Both the position numbers and the translations under genes were made by a program. DNA of 64,000 nt from Streptomyces sp. NBC_01465 (lineage in GTDB: Bacteria > Actinomycetota > Actinomycetes > Streptomycetales > Streptomycetaceae), in the NCBI RefSeq assembly GCF_036227325.1, contig NZ_CP109467.1, positions 8,060,001 through 8,124,000 on the forward strand, read 5' to 3'. Shown in pieces: positions 3,019 to 41,684 of this stretch (positions within the stretch are counted from its first letter, which is position 1; each line of letters opens with the position of its first letter). The notes under the pieces were generated by a model that saw only the letters and a list, made by a program, of their open reading frames with translations, was not told where the DNA came from and did not search any database.

Positions 3019-3240
3019 ATGGCAACCGGCACCGTGAAGTGGTTTAACGCGGCGAGGGGTTTTGGATTCATCGAACAGGATGACGGAGGTTCCGACGTGT
3101 TCGCCCACTTCTCCAACATCGCCAACGATGCGGCCGGGGCGCTGATCGAAGGTCAGAAAGTCACTTTCGATATCGCGCACGGACCCAAGAGTCCTATCGC
3201 TGAAAATATCGCTACTGTTCCGGAAGCGGATATCGACTGA
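3019..3240 (+). CDS. Divergent CspA-family cold shock protein
   Basis: A 73-residue cold-shock protein with NAARGFGFIEQ in RNP1 (Arg replaces the usual Lys) and DVFAHFSNI in RNP2. The middle loop (NDAAGALIEGQ) and an acidic tail (TVPEADID) set it apart from the other three copies. GAAAGGATG precedes the ATG. Base composition is slightly less GC-rich than its neighbours. It follows a strong terminator by only 60 bp, so it depends either on read-through or on a promoter inside that short gap. Confidence 0.9.
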   Translation: MATGTVKWFNAARGFGFIEQDDGGSDVFAHFSNIANDAAGALIEGQKVTFDIAHGPKSPIAENIATVPEADID

Positions 3241-12901: not shown

Positions 12902-13054
12902 GCCTGGTTTGGCGAGCGCGAGAGGGACAGTCTCGACAGAGGTCGCTCGATGCGGGGCGTGCTGCCTGGCCATTCGTCCCGCGTCCCACCCTGTTCACGT
13001 GCCGGGGTTCGATTACCTCTCTGTCGGACAAGCGAAAACCTGTGTCGGCCGGAG

Positions 13055-13083
13055 TAGACATTGGGCGGTGGTGTGGTTATGGT
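13055..13083 (+). promoter_or_regulatory. Near-consensus promoter for the MerR leader (copy A)
   Basis: TAGACA (13055-13060), a 17-bp spacer and TATGGT (13078-13083) form one of the clearest HrdB-type promoters in the window. Both hexamers are unchanged in copy B. The start would be near 13090, about 660 nt before the MerR ATG. Confidence 0.65.
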
Positions 13084-13089
13084 TTCTCT

Positions 13090-13749
13090 CGTAGCCAAGA
13101 AGGACCGCAGGGCCTGGCAGACACGAACTGCCGGGCAGCAGTAGATGAAGTTGGCAGTGCGGTGCGGTGGTGGAGTTTCGAAGCCAGGGTTGTTGCAGGA
13201 CGGCGACGGGGCTGACGACCGGACCGGGTGGCCCGCAGTGATCAGGGGCCGCCGCGAGCAGTACCGCAGTACCGCAAGTGCATTACCCGGCAGTGAAGTT
13301 GAGTGAGCAGTACCTCGGTGAAGGCGTCGGCTGCGGGCGCGCGCACCGGGAAGTTCGGCAGTGGGGTTCTAAGCCAGAGTGGATGCAGGAGTGGCGACGG
13401 GGCTGGCTGCCGGAGGGTGGCGCTTTCTCAGGTCACCGGCAGTTCGCATTACCAGCAGTGCGCAGTACCCCTTCGGTAAATGTTGATCAAGAGGGAAGAA
13501 CGGAGGAGTTGAGCGCCATCAGGATCGCCCGGGTGGAATCGCTGAGCCCGGGTACCGCAGGACATCGATAGTGAGGTGGTCTCCGGTCAAGCAACCGCGA
13601 TCCCCGCAGTTCCCGCCCTCTCCCGGGTGGGCATGCGGATACAGAAGGCCGACGCAGTACGAGGGTCGGCAGATGGTGTAGCAGTTCCTTCGGGGCCTTG
13701 GTGCCATATGGCACCAAGGCCCCTCCACGCGTTCCACAGAGAGGTGCAA
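13090..13749 (+). ncRNA. Long GCAGT-rich leader RNA ahead of the MerR gene (copy A)
   Basis: About 660 nt with no convincing protein. The sense strand has 14 GCAGT pentamers between 13138 and 13686, against a single one on the other strand. A hairpin at 13648-13670 (GCCGAC / GTCGGC, 11-nt loop starting GCAGT) changes to GCCGGT / GCCGGC in copy B, turning an A-T pair into G-C and a C-G pair into T-G, so pairing is kept. CTGCC-x-GGCAG at about 13129 pairs in both copies. A 20-codon frame from TTG 13509 after GGAGGAG is a weak leader-peptide candidate. The leader ends in a 32-bp palindrome before the MerR start. I infer a structured regulatory leader or processed small RNA. Confidence 0.5.
13692..13723. 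promoter_or_regulatory. Perfect 32-bp palindrome before the MerR ribosome site
   Basis: The two 16-bp halves starting GGGGCCTTGGTGCCAT are exactly complementary, centred on CATATG. It ends 26 bp before the ATG, and GAGAGGTG lies between. There is no T-tract. It could be an operator for the MerR protein (MerR dimers bind such symmetrical sites) or an RNA hairpin limiting access to the ribosome site. Identical in copy B. Confidence 0.75.
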
Positions 13750-14088
13750 ATGACAGCAGACGATTCGTTCGGCCGTCTCGATGACGACGATTACCCCGCC
13801 TACACCATGGGCCGGGCCGCCGAGATGATTGGCGCCACCCAGGGTTTCCTCCGGGCCATCGGCGAGGCCCGCCTCATCACCCCGCTCCGCTCCGAGGGTG
13901 GACACCGCCGCTACTCCCGCTACCAGTTGCGCATCGCTGCCCGCGCCCGGGAACTCGTGGACCAGGGCACGCCTATCGAGGCCGCCTGCCGGATCGTCAT
14001 CCTCGAGGACCAGCTCGAGGAAGCCCGGCGTATCAATGCCGAACATCACCGCGCCGCCGAAGCGGCAAAACCCACGACCTCAACCTGA
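13750..14088 (+). CDS. MerR-family transcriptional regulator (copy A)
   Basis: A 112-residue protein. After an acidic N-terminus (GRLDDDDYPAYTM) comes a MerR helix-turn-helix and wing: GRAAEMIGATQGFLRAIGEARLITPL, then GGHRRYSRYQLRIAARARELVDQG. A short C-terminal helix (ILEDQLEEARRINAEHH) follows. No effector domain or metal-binding Cys is present, unlike classical MerR. I start it at ATG 13750 after GAGAGGTG; the frame is open to 13576 but would run through the palindrome. The duplicate at 41346 differs by about one residue (Ala/Thr near the end). Target genes are unknown. Confidence 0.92.
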   Translation: MTADDSFGRLDDDDYPAYTMGRAAEMIGATQGFLRAIGEARLITPLRSEGGHRRYSRYQLRIAARARELVDQGTPIEAACRIVILEDQLEEARRINAEHHRAAEAAKPTTST

Positions 14089-14107
14089 GACGGCCCGGAC
14101 CCGCGGC

Positions 14108-14202
14108 TACACATTCGCCGGACCCGTGGCAGTGCGTCTCGCCGCAGCCCACGGCGCCGACGTCGGCCGCTTCCGCGTACGAAGCCGCATCGCACCCGCA
14201 CA
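14108..14202 (+). repeat. 95-bp FhaA_N gene fragment, inverted relative to copy at 41710
   Basis: Right at the end of repeat copy A lies a segment encoding YTFAGPVAVRLAAAHGADVG and the residues after it on the + strand. The same 95 bp lies at 41710-41804 at the end of copy B but on the opposite strand, inside the FhaA_N gene. About one mismatch separates them. Confidence 0.8.
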
Positions 14203-14368
14203 GCTCGGCGAGCAGCTCGCCCTGCTCATCGACGGCGCCGCGGCTCGCACCCGCGTCCTCAACGCCGACGCCTTCCCCACCGCCGCCGCCATCGCCGCCG
14301 TCCTCATCGACAACGCCATCCCCGCCACGGCCGACGATGAGGGGGCACGGGAGGAAGCATCACGCTGA
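14203..14368 (+). pseudogene. TetR-family C-terminal fragment
   Basis: The frame running out of the FhaA_N fragment continues as LGEQLALLIDGAAARTRVLN and ends ...[17 protein letters not shown]..., the final helices typical of TetR-family regulators (LxxQLxLLxDGA). The DNA-binding domain is absent, so this is a remnant left by a rearrangement. It is fused in frame to the preceding fragment with no start codon of its own. Confidence 0.5.
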
Positions 14369-14527
14369 CTTGGCGCTCCGCGGCCCGGCTTTGACGTGCT
14401 GCAGGTCGCGAGGCTGCACCGCTGGTAGGCGATATGAACCGGACGGCATCTGGCCCGGACCTGAAGGCTCTTAGGGAGCTGATGAGGAGTCCTCGTCTGC
14501 TGAGTGTGTCCGTCCGCAGGTGCACGG

Positions 14528-14900
14528 AAGCGTCGAGTTCCCCCTCGGGGATGCGGGATAGCACCGTGGGGTTGGCGATCTTGTAGCCGTTGAGGTGGAG
14601 GATCGGCAGGACGGCGCCGTCGTGCACGGGGTCGAGGAACTTGTTGGAATGCCAGGAAGCGGCGAGCGGTCCTGTCTCGGCCTCGCCGTCGCCGATCACG
14701 CAGGCGACCAGCAGGTCCGGGTTGTCGAGCGCGGCGCCGTAGGCGTGGGCGAGGGAGTAGCCGAGTTCGCCGCCCTCGTGGATCGAGCCGGGCGTCTCGG
14801 GGGCGACATGGCCGGGGCCCCACACGGAGAGCGCGTCGATGCCGCGCTCCTGGATGACGCGGTTGAGGTGGGTGTGGACGAGGTTCAGGCCGGGTGAGGT
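14528..14900 (-). pseudogene. Internal phosphoketolase fragment
   Basis: The frame encodes [15 protein letters not shown]... to VWGPGH, then jumps to [13 protein letters not shown] and continues through [18 protein letters not shown] to [19 protein letters not shown]. Against the intact phosphoketolase at 23294 it lacks the N-terminus, an in-frame block of about 45 residues after GPGH, and all sequence after about residue 230. Residue differences (for example [10 protein letters not shown] for [10 protein letters not shown]) suggest an old or foreign second copy, not a fresh duplicate. No activity is possible. Confidence 0.85.
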
Positions 14901-15097
14901 GACCGTCGGAGCACCTGGGGGTGGTGGCCTGTACGGGCCACCGAGAGGTACGGCGATGCTCGTGGCCGATCTCCTCCGCAGGAGTACCGTGAAGGCACCA
15001 AGGGCACTTCGTACTCCGGCATCCACGCGGGTCTCGTCCTCGGCGAGCATTGGCATCGGGGGCGGCCGCCGCGTCGCTCCGAAGGCGGGATCGCATC

Positions 15098-19240: not shown

Positions 19241-19699
19241 ATGTCTGTCCTGACCAGCATCCTCAGCGGGCTTCCCACCGAGCACCGTACGCGAGTGGCG
19301 GATCTTGCGCACGAGGTGTCCTTCCCTGCCCAGGCACGCCTGTTCAACGAGGGGCAGCATGCCGACCGGTTCTGGGTCGTTCGGTTCGGTACGGTCGCTC
19401 TCGACCTGCATGTTCCCGGGCGGTCTCCAGCAGTCATCGAGACTCTGGGGCCAGGTCGACTCGTAGGATGGTCATGGCTGTTCGCGCCGTATGTGTGGCA
19501 GTTGGGGGCAACGGCGCTGCGGCCGGTGGGTGCTGCGGAGTTCGACGCCGCTGCCGTGCGGGAGTTGTGCCGGAGCGAACCGGAACTGGGAGCGGCGGTG
19601 GGGCTGTGGGTTGCCCAGGTGCTCGCCCACCGGCTCCACTCCACCAGAATCCGCCTGCTGGATCTTTACGGGCCCGCCGGCAGTGGACCACCGCGCTGA
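19241..19699 (+). CDS. Cyclic-nucleotide-binding (Crp-like sensor) protein
   Basis: A 152-residue cNMP-binding beta-roll (FPAQARLFNEGQHADRFWVV, VIETLGPGRLVGWSWLFAPY, LGATALRPVGAAEFDAAAVR). It stops after the C-helix, so there is no Crp DNA-binding domain. The phosphate-binding cassette lacks the usual Gly-Glu...Arg-Thr/Ser set, so ligand binding may be lost or altered. It is fourth in the DoxX-to-response-regulator operon and resembles the single cNMP-domain proteins of dormancy regulons. Confidence 0.88.
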   Translation: MSVLTSILSGLPTEHRTRVADLAHEVSFPAQARLFNEGQHADRFWVVRFGTVALDLHVPGRSPAVIETLGPGRLVGWSWLFAPYVWQLGATALRPVGAAEFDAAAVRELCRSEPELGAAVGLWVAQVLAHRLHSTRIRLLDLYGPAGSGPPR

Positions 19700-19724
19700 C
19701 GACACTCGACGCCCGGAGGGCAAT

Positions 19725-20423
19725 GTGAGCCAGGAACGCGTCTTCTCAGCGGAATCGCCGATCCGGGTCTTCCTGCTCGACGATCACGAGGTCGTACGAC
19801 GAGGCGTGCACGACCTCCTCGACTCGGAACCGGACATCACCGTGATCGGCGAAGCGGGAACCAGCGCGCAGGCCCTGGTCCGTGGTCCGGCGCTGCGCCC
19901 TGATGTCGCGATCCTGGACATCCGGCTCCCGGACAGCGACGGCATCACCGTCTGCCGCGAACTCCGAGACCGCATGCCGGAGTTGGCCTGTCTGATGTTG
20001 ACGTCGTTCGACGATGACGACGCCCTGCTGGACGCGATCATGGCTGGGGCCGCCGGGTATGTCCTGAAGCAGATCAAGGGCTCGGATCTGGTCACGGCGG
20101 TGCGGACGGTGGCGGCGGGGCAGTCGATGCTCGACCCGGCGACCACCGGGCGCCTGATGAGTAGTCTCCGCGGACCCGCCGTTCCCGTGCAACCTCCCTC
20201 AGAGGCAGGGCAGTTGGATGCGCTGAGTGTGCGCGAACGGGAGATACTGGATCTGATCGGCGAGGGGCCCACCAATCGGCAGATCGGCAAACGCCTCTAT
20301 CTGTCGGAGAAGACCGTCAAGAACCACATCTCGCGGCTCTTGGCGAAGCTCGGCGTCGAACGCCGGGTGCAGGCGGCGGTCCTGGCCGTCCGGATGGAAC
20401 CTCTGCCTCGCAGGGATGCGTGA
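19725..20423 (+). CDS. osdR: NarL/DevR-family response regulator (OsdR-like)
   Basis: A 232-residue response regulator from GTG 19725, after CGGAGGG. Receiver: LLDDHEVVRRG (acid pocket Asp19-Asp20), phosphoacceptor Asp65 (AILDIRLPDSDG), Thr/Lys switch (LTSFDDDDAL, YVLKQI). LuxR-type helix-turn-helix: LSVREREILDLIGEGPTNRQ, then SEKTVKNHISRLLAKLGV. It resembles mycobacterial DevR/DosR and S. coelicolor OsdR. The convergent gene at 20795 encodes a matching two-GAF kinase. The GGGNC-N4-GNCCC boxes in this cluster are its likely sites. Confidence 0.9.
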   Translation: MSQERVFSAESPIRVFLLDDHEVVRRGVHDLLDSEPDITVIGEAGTSAQALVRGPALRPDVAILDIRLPDSDGITVCRELRDRMPELACLMLTSFDDDDALLDAIMAGAAGYVLKQIKGSDLVTAVRTVAAGQSMLDPATTGRLMSSLRGPAVPVQPPSEAGQLDALSVREREILDLIGEGPTNRQIGKRLYLSEKTVKNHISRLLAKLGVERRVQAAVLAVRMEPLPRRDA

Positions 20424-20794: not shown

Positions 20795-22516
20795 CTAGCG
20801 GCGATCGGGAAGCGGTACGGTCCAGCACAGAAGGGTGCCGCCCTCGGTCGGCGCGGTCAGCGTGAGGTCGCCGCCCAGGTTCAGCGCCCGCTCGCTGAGG
20901 TTGCGCAGCCCGCTGCGGTGTCCGCCTGCGCCGATGCCAACTCCGTCGTCGGTGACCGTGAGGGTGAGTTGCTCCTTGCGGACGATGAGCGCGATCTCCG
21001 CGGACGACGCGTGTGCGTGGCGGACGACGTTCGCCAGCGCCTCGCTGAGTACGGCCACCACCTCGTCGGCCATGGTGTGCGGGACGTCGTTGTCGAGCAG
21101 TCCCTCCATGCGCAGGGACGGGGTGAATCCGAGTGCGGGGACGGCTTCTTCGGCGGTCCGGGAGGCGTTGGCCCGCAGGCCGGGACCGACTGCGGTCGCG
21201 CCGTGGGCCCGCAGTCCGAAAATCGTGGAGCGGATGATCTTGATGGTGGTGTCGAGGTCGTCGACCGCCCTGCCGATCCGTTCGGTTGCTTCCGGGTTTT
21301 CGACGAAACGCTGCGCGCTCTGCAGGGTCAGTCCAGTGGCGAACAGCCTCTGGATGGCCAGGTCGTGGAGATCGCGCGCTATCCGGTCGCGGTCCTCCAG
21401 TACGCTCACCTGCTCCGCGGCCTTGCGCCGGTCGGCGAGTTCCAGCGCGAGGGCGGCCTGTCCGGCGAAGCCGGGCAGCGGTGCGATCTCCTCCGGGGTG
21501 AAGGGTGTGCGTCCCGCGGCGCGGGCCAGCAGGAGGACCCCACGAGCTCCGTCCCTCGTACTCAGCGGAACAGCGAGCGCGGGCCCCAGCCCCTTCCAGC
21601 GCTCGGGACGGTAGGTCACCCGCGGGTCCGTCGCCACATCCGCGGTGACAATCAGCTGTCCTGCGACCAGCGCTGACCCCGTCAGGGTTCCCTCGCGCGG
21701 CATCCGCATCCCACGGTGCACCGCGGCCCCCTCACCGAGCGCGAGTACCCCGCGCAACTCCTGGGTATCGGGGGTCAAGAGGTCGACCACGCCCAGGTCG
21801 GCCGAGGTGATGGCCCGCGCCCGGTCCAGCATCAGCTCCAGGACTGTCGTCTCCGGGGCGCCGGAGAGCAGACCGCTGGTGAGCTCGGCGCCGGCCGCCA
21901 GCCAACGCCCCCGCACCTGTGCCTCCGCGTACAGGCGGGCGTTGTCGATCGCCACCCCGGCCGCAACCGCCAGGGTCGACAGGACGGCCTCGTCCTCCGC
22001 GTCGAACTGCGCACCCCCTCGTTTCTGTGTGAGGTAGAGGTTGCCGAACACCACTCCGCGCACGCTCACGGGCACGCCCAGGAAGGAGTGCATCGGTGGA
22101 TGGTGCGGGGGGAAACCGTAGGAGGCCGGGTGCTCGGACAGTTCTCTCAGCCGCAGCGGCTCGGGATGGCTGATCAGCTCGCCGAGGAGCCCGTGGCCGG
22201 CGGGCAGTGCCCCGATCTGCGTGTGCTCGGCGTCGCTGATACCCACCGTGACGAACTGGGCGAGGCGTTGATCCGGCCCTATCACTCCCAGTGCGCCGTA
22301 TTCGGCATCGACCAGGATGGCCGCGGCCTCGGTGATGTGCCGCAGCACCTGTGAGAGATCGAGCTCGCGTCCCACCGACAGGACCGCCTCCAACAGGCTG
22401 TGCAGACGCCCTCGAGTGCTGAGGACCGCCCGGATCTGCGCCTGGAGTTCTTCGAGCAGCACATCCAGGCGCAGCCGTGGCACGGTTTCGGACAGTGCGG
22501 GTTCCTCGGCGTTCAA
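20795..22516 (-). CDS. osdK: Two-GAF sensor histidine kinase (OsdK/DevS-like)
   Basis: A 573-residue soluble kinase: GAF-A (about 50-195), GAF-B (about 210-350), HisKA_3 with DRDRIARDLHD (phosphoacceptor His) and HATPase (SEALANVVRHAHASS, DDGVGIGAGGHRSGLRNLSERA). GAF-A contains GFPPHHPPMHSFLGVPVSVR with His138/His139. In mycobacterial DosS the haem-ligating His lies in the same type of loop, so gas or redox sensing is plausible; which His binds haem is inferred. The convergent response regulator at 19725 is the natural partner. The DUF2180 gene lies 48 bp upstream and is likely co-transcribed. Confidence 0.92.
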   Translation of the reverse strand: MNAEEPALSETVPRLRLDVLLEELQAQIRAVLSTRGRLHSLLEAVLSVGRELDLSQVLRHITEAAAILVDAEYGALGVIGPDQRLAQFVTVGISDAEHTQIGALPAGHGLLGELISHPEPLRLRELSEHPASYGFPPHHPPMHSFLGVPVSVRGVVFGNLYLTQKRGGAQFDAEDEAVLSTLAVAAGVAIDNARLYAEAQVRGRWLAAGAELTSGLLSGAPETTVLELMLDRARAITSADLGVVDLLTPDTQELRGVLALGEGAAVHRGMRMPREGTLTGSALVAGQLIVTADVATDPRVTYRPERWKGLGPALAVPLSTRDGARGVLLLARAAGRTPFTPEEIAPLPGFAGQAALALELADRRKAAEQVSVLEDRDRIARDLHDLAIQRLFATGLTLQSAQRFVENPEATERIGRAVDDLDTTIKIIRSTIFGLRAHGATAVGPGLRANASRTAEEAVPALGFTPSLRMEGLLDNDVPHTMADEVVAVLSEALANVVRHAHASSAEIALIVRKEQLTLTVTDDGVGIGAGGHRSGLRNLSERALNLGGDLTLTAPTEGGTLLCWTVPLPDRR

Positions 22517-23293: not shown

Positions 23294-25678
23294 ATGCCCG
23301 ACATCCAGCAGGAATCGGCACGTTATCTTCGCGCGCAGGAACTGGCCGCGCTCGATGCGCACTGGAGGGCGGCGAACTACCTGGCGGTCGGCCAGATCTA
23401 TCTGATGGCCAACCCGCTGCTCGACGAGGCGCTGCGCCCCGAGCACATCAAACCCCGGCTGCTGGGTCACTGGGGGACGTCGCCCGGGCTGAACCTCGTC
23501 CACACCCACCTCAACCGTGTGATCACAGACCGCGGCAAGGACATCCTGTGCATCTGGGGTCCCGGCCACGGAGGGCCCGCGGTACTCGCCAACTCCTGGA
23601 TCGAGGGCACGTACTCCGAGACGTACCCGGACGTGAGCCGGGATGCAGACGGTATGGCTCGTCTCTTCCGGCAGTTCTCCTTCCCCGGCGGGGTGCCCAG
23701 CCATGTGGCCCCGGAGACGCCCGGTTCGATCCACGAGGGCGGCGAACTCGGCTACTCCCTCTCCCATGCCTACGGCGCCGCGTTCGACAACCCCGATCTG
23801 CTGGTCGCCTGCGTGATCGGCGACGGCGAGGCCGAGACGGGACCGCTGGCCGCTTCCTGGCACTCCAACAAGTTCCTCGACCCCGTCCGCGACGGAGCGG
23901 TCCTGCCGATCCTGCACCTCAACGGCTACAAGATCGCCAACCCGGCCGTGCTCGCCCGGCTCCCCGAGACCGAACTCGACGACTTCCTGCGCGGGTTGGG
24001 CCACGAACCGATCCATGTCGAGGGCGACGATCCGCTCCAGGTGCACGACGCGATGGCGCACGCCATGGACACGGCCCTGGACCTGATCGGCGCCATCCAG
24101 CGCGGCGCGCGCGAGGAGGGCGTCACCGAGCGGCGCCCCTGGCCGGTGATCGTGCTCCGTACGCCCAAGGGCTGGACCGGACCGGCCGAGGTGGACGGGA
24201 TTGCGGTCGAGGGGACCTGGCGCGCCCATCAGGTCCCGCTGGCCGGCGTACGCGAAAACCCGGACCACCTGCGCCAGTTGGAGCAGTGGATGCGCTCCTA
24301 CCGGCCGCGGGAGTTGTTCGACGACCGGGGCAGGCCGAGCGCCCAGGTCCTGGAGTGCGTGCCACAGGGCGTGCGGCGCCTCGGCGCGAGCGAGCACGCG
24401 AACGGTGGACTCCTGGTCCGTGCCCTGCCGCTCCCGCCGCTCGAACGCTACGCAGTGCAGGTCGACAAGCCCGGCACGACGATGCACGAACCCACCCGGG
24501 TACTGGGCGATCTCCTGGAAACCCTCATGGAGAACACCGCCGAGCGGCGCGACTTCCGCCTCTTCGGCCCGGACGAGACCGCCTCCAACCGCCTGCAATC
24601 CGTCTACCGCGCCACCGGAAAGGCGTGGCAGGCGCAGACCCTGCCGGTGGACGAGCACCTCGACCGGCACGGACGGGTCATGGAAATCCTCTCCGAACAC
24701 ACCTGCCAGGGCTGGCTGGAGGGCTACCTGCTCACCGGCCGGCACGGGATGTTCTCCTGCTACGAGGCGTTCGTCCACATCGTCGACTCCATGGTCAACC
24801 AGCACATCAAGTGGCTGCGCACCGCCCGCCGCCTGCCCTGGCGCCGTCCCGTCGCCTCCCTCAACTACCTCCTCACCTCGCACGTCTGGCGCCAGGACAA
24901 CAACGGCTTCTCCCACCAGGACCCGGGCTTCATCGATCACGTCCTCAACAAATCCCCCGAAGTCGTCCGGGTCTACCTCCCCCCGGACGCCAACACGCTG
25001 CTCGCGGTGGCCGACCATGTCCTGCGCTCGCGCGACTACGTGAACGTCGTCGTCGCCGGCAAGCAGCCGTGCTTCGACTGGCTGACCCTGGAGGAGGCCC
25101 GCGGCCACTGCGCCCGCGGAGCCGGGATCTGGGACTGGGCAAGCACGGAAAACGGCGGCCGGGACCCGGACGTGGTTCTGGCGTGCGCCGGTGACGTTCC
25201 CACGCTGGAGGTACTGGCCGCGGCCCAGTTGCTGCGCCGCCACCTTCCCGAGCTGGCGGTGCGCGTGGTGAACGTGGTGGACCTCGCCCGCCTCCTCCCC
25301 ACGGCGGAGCATCCGCACGGCATGCCCGATGCCGAGTACGACGCCTTGTTCACCCCGGACAAACCGGTCATTTTCGCGTACCACGGCTACCCGTGGCTGA
25401 TCCACCGCCTCGCCTACCGGCGCTCCGGCCACGCCCATCTCCATGTCCGCGGCTACAAGGAGGAGGGCACCACGACGACGCCCTTCGACATGGTCGTACG
25501 CAATGACCTCGACCGGTACCGCCTGGCCATGGACGTCATCGACCGAGTCCCCGGCCTCGCCGAGCGAGCCGCCACGATCCGCCAGGAACTGTCGGACACC
25601 CGCCTGCGCCACCACGACTGGATCCGCGAACACGGCACCGACCTCCCAGAGGTCGCCGACTGGACCTGGACCGGCTGA
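23294..25678 (+). CDS. xfp: Phosphoketolase (xylulose-5-P/fructose-6-P)
   Basis: A 794-residue ThDP enzyme of full family length. It shows [20 protein letters not shown] and [15 protein letters not shown], the ThDP-binding [20 protein letters not shown] with [10 protein letters not shown], and the C-terminal [13 protein letters not shown] with [20 protein letters not shown]. The reaction cleaves xylulose-5-phosphate or fructose-6-phosphate with phosphate to give acetyl phosphate and glyceraldehyde- or erythrose-4-phosphate. Acetyl phosphate can yield ATP when respiration is limited, which fits this dormancy cluster. A partial second copy lies at 14528. No acetate kinase gene is nearby. Confidence 0.96.
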
Positions 25679-35752: not shown

Positions 35753-36256
<504 letters not shown>

Positions 36257-40597: not shown

Positions 40598-40641
40598 GAT
40601 TACCTCTCTGTCGGACACGCGGAAACCTGTGTCGGCCGGAG

Positions 40642-40676: not shown

Positions 40677-41345
40677 CGTAGCCAAGAAGGACCGCAGGGC
40701 CTGGCAGACACGAACTGCCAGGCAGCAGTACACGCAGTAGATGAAGTTGGCAGTGCGGTGCGGTGGTGGAGTTTCGAAGCCAGGGTTGTTGCAGGACGGC
40801 GACGGGGCTGACGACCGGACCGGGTGGCCCGCAGTGATCAGGGGCCGCCGCGAGCAGTACCGCAGTACCGCAAGTGCATTACCCGGCAGTGAAGTTGAGT
40901 GAGCAGCACCTCGGTGAAGGCGTCGGCTGCGGGCGCGCGCACCGGGAAGTTCGGCAGTGGGGTTCTAAGCCAGAGCGGATGCAGGAGCGGCGACGGGGCT
41001 GGCTGCCGGAGCGTGGCGCTTTCTCAGGTCACCAGCAGTTCGCATCACCAGCAGTGCGCAGTACCCCTTCGGTAAATGTTGATCAAGAGGGAAGAACGGA
41101 GGAGTTGAGCGCCATCAGGATCGCCCGGGCGGAATCGCTGAGCCCGGGTACCGCAGGACATCGATAGTGAGGTGGTCTCCGGTCAAGCAACCGCGATCCC
41201 CGCAGTTCCCGCCCTCTCCCGGGTGGGCATGCGGATACAGAAGGCCGGTGCAGTACGAGGGCCGGCAGATGGTGTAGCAGTTCCTTCGGGGCCTTGGTGC
41301 CATATGGCACCAAGGCCCCTCCACGCGTTCCACAGAGAGGTGCAA
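40677..41345 (+). ncRNA. Long GCAGT-rich leader RNA ahead of the MerR gene (copy B)
   Basis: About 670 nt, matching the copy A leader. One GCAGT of copy A is changed to GCAGC here, and most others are kept. The hairpin at 41244-41266 reads GCCGGT / GCCGGC against GCCGAC / GTCGGC in copy A: an A-T pair is replaced by G-C and a C-G by T-G, so the stem survives. The same 20-codon TTG frame (41105-41167) is present with one residue changed. It ends in the same 32-bp palindrome. Confidence 0.5.
41288..41319. promoter_or_regulatory. Perfect 32-bp palindrome before the MerR ribosome site (copy B)
   Basis: Identical to 13692-13723: two exact 16-bp complementary halves centred on CATATG, 26 bp before the ATG. 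Its full conservation, while the flanking leader has changed, supports function. Confidence 0.75.
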
Positions 41346-41684
41346 ATGACAGCAGACGATTCGTTCGGCCGTCTCGATGACGACGATTACCCCGCCTACA
41401 CCATGGGCCGGGCCGCCGAGATGATCGGCGCCACCCAGGGCTTCCTCCGCGCCATCGGCGAAGCCCGCCTCATCACCCCGCTCCGCTCCGAGGGCGGCCA
41501 CCGCCGCTACTCCCGCTACCAGTTGCGCATCGCTGCCCGCGCCCGGGAACTCGTGGACCAGGGCACGCCTATCGAGGCCGCCTGCCGGATCGTCATCCTC
41601 GAGGACCAGCTCGAGGAAGCACGGCGTATCAACGCCGAACATCACCGCACCGCCGAAGCGGCAAAACCCACGACCTCAACCTGA
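41346..41684 (+). CDS. MerR-family transcriptional regulator (copy B)
   Basis: A 112-residue MerR-type protein, the same as 13750 except for about one residue (HHRTAEAAK versus HHRAAEAAK). Helix-turn-helix and wing are complete (GRAAEMIGATQGFLRAIGEA, GGHRRYSRYQLRIAARAREL). Many codon positions between the copies carry synonymous changes, so protein sequence is under purifying selection in both. Its stop overlaps by nine bases the end of the convergent FhaA_N gene. Confidence 0.92.
   Translation: MTADDSFGRLDDDDYPAYTMGRAAEMIGATQGFLRAIGEARLITPLRSEGGHRRYSRYQLRIAARARELVDQGTPIEAACRIVILEDQLEEARRINAEHHRTAEAAKPTTST

Follow-up and report, generated by a model that had tools for sequence, protein, structure and literature searches.

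The window analysed here, a stretch of 64,000 nt from Streptomyces sp. NBC_01465 (GCF_036227325.1, NZ_CP109467.1, positions 8,060,001-8,124,000, forward strand), carries two full copies of one unit that are 97% identical. From 5' to 3', the unit consists of a promoter block, a hairpin (P1), a middle part that varies and contains GCAGU linkers, a core, a strong hairpin and a gene for a MerR-type protein. Leaders of the long form additionally have two modules in this middle part, D1 and D2, which are paralogues of each other. The features, in window positions, are as follows.

13035..13083 (+): promoter block of copy A and possible MerR operator, with AAAACCTGT at 13035-13043, a -35-like TAGACA at 13055-13060 and a -10-like TATGGT at 13078-13083
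13090..13723 (+): RNA of copy A, from predicted start to end of terminal hairpin; whole stretch conserved, consensus fold from 76 leaders
13107..13139 (+): hairpin P1, GGCAGACACGAACTGCC, holding the sole ACTGC; its sequence recurs in other families
13158..13254 (+): module D1, paralogue of D2; 98.8% of pairs kept
13255..13310 (+): GCAGU-rich linker 1; of 102 leaders, 62 have site 13258, 56 have 13266 and 65 have 13290, these sites being unpaired in the consensus fold
13314..13350 (+): hairpin separating linker 1 from D2; pair 13320-13344, for example, is G-C in 53, A-U in 15 and G-U in 8 of 76 leaders
13352..13440 (+): module D2, paralogue of D1; 15 compensatory events against a null maximum of 7 over 13310-13440
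13441..13470 (+): GCAGU-rich linker 2; of 102 leaders, 71 have site 13455 and 53 have 13462
13498..13692 (+): core domain of copy A, model R1, 219.4 bits; 29 of 49 pairs change on both sides (69 sequences)
13692..13723 (+): terminal hairpin of copy A, 14 pairs, terminator-like; 19 compensatory events against a null maximum of 4
13750..14088 (+): MerR-type gene of copy A, 112 residues, Pfam MerR_1
36059..36247 (+): cold-shock-domain gene upstream of copy B, PF00313, 100.1 bits
36570..38072 (+): DEAD-box helicase gene upstream of copy B, PF00270 and PF00271
40623..40670 (+): promoter block of copy B, read from the sequence, with GTAGACA at 40641
40677..41319 (+): RNA of copy B, 97% identical to copy A; core at 41094-41288 (220.9 bits), terminal hairpin at 41288-41319
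41346..41684 (+): MerR-type gene of copy B, its protein 99.1% identical to that of copy A

The promoter that a preliminary description of this DNA had placed ahead of the MerR gene is present, with 17 nt between its two elements, and the position of the -10 element suggests an RNA start near 13090. Ahead of the RNA, the same block recurs in the Streptomyces group (128 distinct upstream regions) and in two other families, here called f17 (39 regions) and f18 (27 regions); it also precedes merR on four Rhodococcus plasmids. Its Streptomyces consensus is AAATCT, about 11-13 nt, AGTAGACAT, a spacer and GG.TA..GTT, or AAATCT...AGTAGACATT in short form; a role as MerR operator is putative. Of 72 occurrences of the GTAGACATT motif in 0.9 Mb, 70 belong to leader promoters, four of them assigned by eye. 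Leader length varies among lineages, the median from predicted start to 40 nt past the core being 655 nt in 12 long Streptomyces leaders, 491 nt in 19 of the 20 leaders of f17 (one was dropped for want of a promoter motif), 361 nt in 14 leaders of a second Streptomyces form and 353 nt in 21 leaders of f18. About 110 nt are shared in inverted orientation 3' of the two MerR copies (about 14090-14215 and 41.69-41.81 kb), a trace of a rearrangement after or during the duplication.

The leader has a conserved fold

Leaders were collected upstream of 110 MerR matches, 109 of which had 850 nt of upstream sequence. These gave 105 distinct sequences and, once L051 (without leader match), L089 and L106 (short matches) were dropped, a set of 102. 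The 76 leaders with less than 12% gaps were used for the consensus fold, the pairing of sites and the count of compensatory events, and the core alignment A1 comprised 90 of 101 distinct core sequences. Covariance modelling of homologous leaders, which the preliminary description had proposed as a check, showed that the core is conserved. In 69 diverse sequences, 91.9% of cells pair and 29 of 49 pairs (178 cells) change on both sides, against 30.5-44.3% of cells, 7-13 pairs and 12-26 cells when partners were slid in the same sequences. A second set of 98 rows (94 distinct) gave 94.0% paired, with 21 pairs and 168 cells changing on both sides, against at most 46.4%, 4-8 pairs and at most 21 cells in the slid control; both alignments were fitted to model R1, which favours it. 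Compensatory events on the tree number 38 in the core, where 300 simulations of random substitutions gave at most 11. Within the 76 Streptomyces leaders, 100 simulations gave null maxima of 27 for the full fold (59 events observed) and 11 for the core (16 observed), and here the leader folds had been computed from the very leaders that were scored, which favours these folds. The claim of an RNA-level element is supported, with structure kept across a class, but at about 640 nt the RNA is not the small one that had been proposed.

Single parts differ in how well they are supported. Pair by pair, with a tree-aware null, no significant Watson-Crick pair was detected in the leaders or in the diverse set; the two significant pairs of the leaders are adjacent near 13097, and neither was kept under the 85% rule. 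Taken together, these comparisons strongly support a conserved fold, and support for any single pair is weak. The P1 helix alone lacks support in the 76 leaders (2 events, null maximum 5) and support for D1 is weak (4 events, null maximum 4). The paralogy of D1 and D2 is based on a local alignment score of 76, the best of 500 shuffles reaching 45. Helix 6 of the core model is doubtful because many of its cells fail to pair (72.4% paired). The core also has invariant unpaired stretches. A stem read as GCCGAC/GTCGGC in copy A and GCCGGT/GCCGGC in copy B had been described as covarying, and its pair 13652-13666 is indeed G-C in 61, A-U in 8 and G-U in 7 of the 76 leaders. The terminal hairpin has no run of T in the window, and transcription termination at this site is putative.

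GCAGU sites are in excess in several lineages

Between 13090 and 13749, GCAGT occurs 14 times and its complement ACTGC once, and none of 2,000 dinucleotide shuffles reached 14 (mean 1.8, maximum 7; mononucleotide shuffles have a mean of 0.8). Copy B (40686-41345) likewise has 14 GCAGT and one ACTGC, again with none of 2,000 dinucleotide shuffles reaching 14 (mean 1.9, maximum 8). The preliminary count was thus correct, but the range given with it, 13138-13686, leaves out the sole ACTGC, which sits at 13127-13131. By eye, the sites are retained in copy B as had been reported, apart from one GCAGT that became GCAGC and one gained within a short insertion.

The strand bias expected in homologues was found when they were counted against shuffled controls. 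The 102 leaders contain on average 11.67 GCAGT and 0.95 ACTGC, with 2.01 GCAGT after shuffling, and GCAGT is their commonest 5-mer. The excess is also seen in f17 (94 in total, shuffled mean 16.8), in the second Streptomyces form (24, shuffled mean 6.8) and in locus L177 (10, shuffled mean 1.3); locus L176 has 1 against 0.3. No excess was detected in the 21 leaders of f18 (7 observed, 10.7 shuffled), which rules out GCAGT as a mark of the whole RNA family, and Rhodococcus leaders have just 0-2 each.

In the consensus fold of the 76 leaders, GCAGU sites have a mean paired probability of 0.147 against 0.436 elsewhere, a contrast to which the poor alignment of the linkers that hold them itself contributes by lowering their consensus pairing. 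Site 13358 is fully paired in this fold, and the single-sequence fold of copy A shows a weak contrast (0.55 at GCAGU, 0.63 elsewhere). We also considered that the repeats might compete to pair with the single ACUGC of P1. This was rejected, as leaders with an altered P1 (six AACTGG, one AACTGT, one GAACTAC) retain 10-15 GCAGT; this check covered 201 distinct leaders having the promoter motif, in 36 of which the pattern missed the P1 motif.

Distribution and gene order

A DNA search with the leader gave matches in 252 of 295 genomes of the genus (E values up to 0.001), some of them in part; the best matches listed cover nearly all of 721 nt at 77-88% identity and weaker ones are partial. Loci with the same MerR, among the 80 named of at least 488, belong to Streptomyces, Actinacidiphila, Streptantibioticus and one "Actinobacteria bacterium". 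The covariance model R1, which covers the 195-nt 3' core, matches 151 of 200 genomes of the own family (14 of 17 genera), 47 of 120 in f17 (31 of 68 genera), 20 of 35 in f18 (4 of 7 genera) and 58 of 296 genomes sampled from the class (15 of 114 genera). It is also found in 4 of 11 named regions of a plasmid collection (Streptomyces sp. Mg1, Embleya, Kitasatospora and Nonomuraea). In the phylum sample, 9 of 198 genomes matched, eight from the own genus and one at 7e-4 that is probably due to chance. Within these samples, the RNA looks confined to some families of one class. Locus L222, in a genome of f17 (G624), carries a Streptomyces-like core of 219.4 bits, which is a recent transfer or contamination.

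For gene order, 65 chosen loci gave 69 matches and 90 loci gave 98, together 167 matches with 137 distinct units. In 128 of the 137, a MerR gene follows within 300 nt, 47-220 nt behind the core; a hairpin below -18 kcal/mol is located 3' of the core in 136, and the promoter motif is present in 130. Five of the other nine units have their MerR further on, behind a second complete unit, and for four no MerR was seen in the sequence read. The hairpin is retained in every one of the nine and the promoter motif in eight, so that the unit can stand apart from merR, although the link with merR is still the rule. One of the nine, in L147, reaches 92.7 bits, a usual score within its family, and on inspection by eye continues into a long frame on the opposite strand; others of the nine, at 30-66 bits, may be decaying. 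Tandem RNA units, each with its own hairpin, were observed in L139, L147, L164, L196, L213 and L262, which belong to f18 genomes and one genome of the own family.

All four Rhodococcus plasmid regions have the promoter element ahead of merR and lack the core; by eye they also keep a P1-like hairpin, a AGTACCGC-like stretch and a terminal hairpin. The presence of the block without the core ties it to merR, which supports autoregulation without proving it. Regions from Nocardia, Saccharopolyspora and Pseudonocardia carry a MerR relative with neither promoter element nor core. In age, the promoter block, terminal hairpin and MerR gene come first; next is the 195-nt core, to which the preliminary description had given no special place.

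The MerR-type protein

The 112-codon MerR gene described at 13750 was confirmed by a match of its protein to MerR_1 (PF13411; residues 18-80, 35 bits, cut-off 21.6). In NCBIfam the protein falls to MerR-type families, with the heat-shock repressor HspR (NF047375) as best match; membership was rejected at 36.9 bits against a cut-off of 105. BldC, a MerR-like developmental regulator of Streptomyces (PMC6344877), is likewise a small MerR-type protein without a large effector domain, but the protein studied here scores 14.1 bits against the BldC cut-off of 77 and is not a member. A sequence search for relatives of solved structure gave none at E 0.01. By annotation, and partly by eye, Hsp20 genes are found near merR in some relatives. 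On a Saccharopolyspora pogona plasmid (L189, 1949-2827) a MerR relative lies directly behind an Hsp20 gene, with no RNA or promoter element between them, an arrangement that hints at heat-shock regulation as the older role of this MerR.

Cold-shock genes in the neighbourhood

Around the 80 named loci (0.9 Mb), 62 cold-shock motifs were found in 49 loci, 61 of them on the same strand, against 1.3 expected from the 13 cold-shock genes of the own genome; these loci are related and were found by similarity, and do not count as independent events. In 29 of the 80, the motif lies 0.33-1 kb behind the MerR start, and DEAD-box motifs often accompany the cold-shock motifs. In the window, a functional link between copy B and the cold-shock and DEAD-box genes upstream of it may be considered. 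A cold-shock gene is annotated beside merR in three of the four Rhodococcus regions, whereas the f17 and f18 loci examined showed no such gene within a distance of about 1.5 kb. Outside Streptomyces, array and neighbour are thus uncoupled, since Rhodococcus has the neighbours with 0-2 GCAGT per leader and f17 has GCAGU with no such neighbour seen.

The window contains four of the 13 cold-shock-domain genes of its genome, all on the plus strand (1460-1651, 2704-2892, 3025-3213 and 36059-36247), and is a stress island. A phosphoketolase gene fragment (XFP_N positions 126-219 of 364) is located beside copy A at 14307-15056 (-), and a full-length phosphoketolase gene is located at 23294-25678 (+). 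A LuxR-type response regulator gene (19491-20423, +) adjoins that of a GAF/HisKA_3 sensor kinase (20795-22516, -), a pair that resembles the DevR/DevS dormancy regulators.

Comparison with known RNA families

None of the 4,227 models of Rfam 15 matched the window at gathering score, in agreement with the earlier statement that no described leader class has this pattern. The leader alone gave just three short chance-level matches at E 10, and no match was obtained over the RNA in 16 relatives, so that a known Rfam family is ruled out for window, leader and relatives; a cobalamin riboswitch in L176 (3027-3171, +, 34.7 bits) is far from this RNA and unrelated to it. No description of the RNA was seen in the literature searched, whose scope left aside most subscription papers and all bioRxiv preprints, and there is a small but appreciable chance that a prior report exists. 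The RNA family appears to be new; the order of its parts is of a familiar sort. Like the cspA thermoregulator leaders, it is a long structured 5' leader, and cold-shock genes lie near it, but it is much longer, has no Rfam match and leads a MerR gene rather than a cold-shock gene. Riboswitch and attenuator leaders likewise place a strong hairpin between a conserved core and the gene close behind it. The conserved structured domain ahead of merR is in this respect a candidate aptamer, but no known aptamer was matched, and complete units also occur without a gene directly behind.

A proposed attenuated unit and its alternatives

The reading we favour, which we judge about equally likely to be right or wrong, is that of a new family of large structured actinomycete RNAs forming an attenuated unit, in which MerR is made by read-through and GCAGU serves as a protein site. 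The dedicated conserved promoter would give an RNA of about 640 nt here (in compact relatives, some 300-350 nt), with the strong hairpin 13692-13723 as its usual 3' end. Transcripts that run past this hairpin would serve as mRNA for the small MerR-type protein. This protein, in turn, would probably bind the extended promoter and so adjust expression of the unit. The RNA itself would be built from a deeply conserved core and optional modules, and in Streptomyces and some relatives the single-stranded GCAGU array would offer sites for an RNA-binding protein. The partner would most likely be an RNA chaperone of the stress response, for instance a cold-shock protein, and occupancy of the array would make read-through into merR depend on how much of that protein is available; the cold-shock protein is a guess from the neighbourhood, more apt to be wrong than right. 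Against the attenuated unit stand the hairpin without a T run, the lack of any significant single Watson-Crick pair, the weak pairing contrast of GCAGU in the single-sequence fold, the lack of a GCAGU excess in f18 and the separation of array and cold-shock neighbours outside Streptomyces.

A serious, if minority, candidate is a purely cis-acting leader, whose core would sense a ligand or temperature and control the hairpin before merR, GCAGU being a linker or folding aid. The closeness of MerR to the core in 128 of 137 units, the invariant unpaired stretches of the core and the hairpin directly ahead of the gene are all consistent with it. Units without MerR directly behind speak against it, as they keep the hairpin (9/9) and the promoter (8/9), one of them at a typical 92.7 bits, and so does the recurrence of the GCAGU excess in several lineages.

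The same MerR-less units, together with the tandem ones, have their own promoter and hairpin, and these, with the many unpaired GCAGU sites, point to a trans-acting RNA or sponge, as the preliminary description had proposed, a view that we again hold possible but not probable. Here the terminated RNA, not a small one, would be the product and titrate an RNA-binding protein, MerR being merely an autoregulator; such a role fits poorly with a merR link that is the rule (128/137) and with an array that is missing in f18 where the core is kept.

It is improbable that the array arose by the neutral spread of short repeats within the linkers, with the core alone being of importance. The number of GCAGT ranges from 2 to 22 per leader and short direct repeats are present within the linkers, as such an expansion would have it, but the excess recurs in both Streptomyces forms, in f17 and in L177, eleven or more positions recur in more than half of the 102 leaders, and ACTGC stays rare.

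Type III toxin-antitoxin operons such as ToxIN consist of a promoter, a repeat RNA, a hairpin terminator and a protein gene (PMC8860590). The unit has its parts in a similar order and some members are on plasmids, so that an RNA binding the protein encoded behind it may be imagined. We consider this very unlikely: the motif is of 5 nt at uneven spacing and not a long tandem unit, termination is here only predicted, and the protein is of the MerR type (Pfam MerR_1, NCBIfam), DNA-binding rather than a toxic endoribonuclease.

A protein-coding stretch or artefact is already contradicted, in line with the earlier remark that no convincing protein is present: four frames are open in 10 of 84, 46 of 102, 89 of 102 and 38 of 102 homologues, but for the frame open in 89 the length matches the reference modulo 3 in just 40 of 102, about chance, which rules out a coding leader, and compensatory changes and the class-wide spread argue further against it.

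Next to the attenuated unit with read-through into merR, we formulated a bolder version, speculative and not one we would expect to hold in full. It sees a class of ribonucleoprotein-forming RNAs in which a fixed core is combined with expandable, lineage-specific GCAGU sites where a stress RNA chaperone would land. Part of its action would be in trans, and an attenuated MerR gene would serve the RNA as built-in autoregulator.

Implications

The RNA matches 252 of 295 genomes of its genus, some in part, and its core is present in 31 of 68 genera of f17, yet it has no match in Rfam 15. The bacteria that carry it are not known to have Hfq or CsrA, and its GCAGU array offers a convenient bait for an RNA-binding protein with sequence specificity. 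If the bolder version is true, the GCAGU array and the fixed core would together define a new class of large actinomycete ribonucleoprotein RNA.
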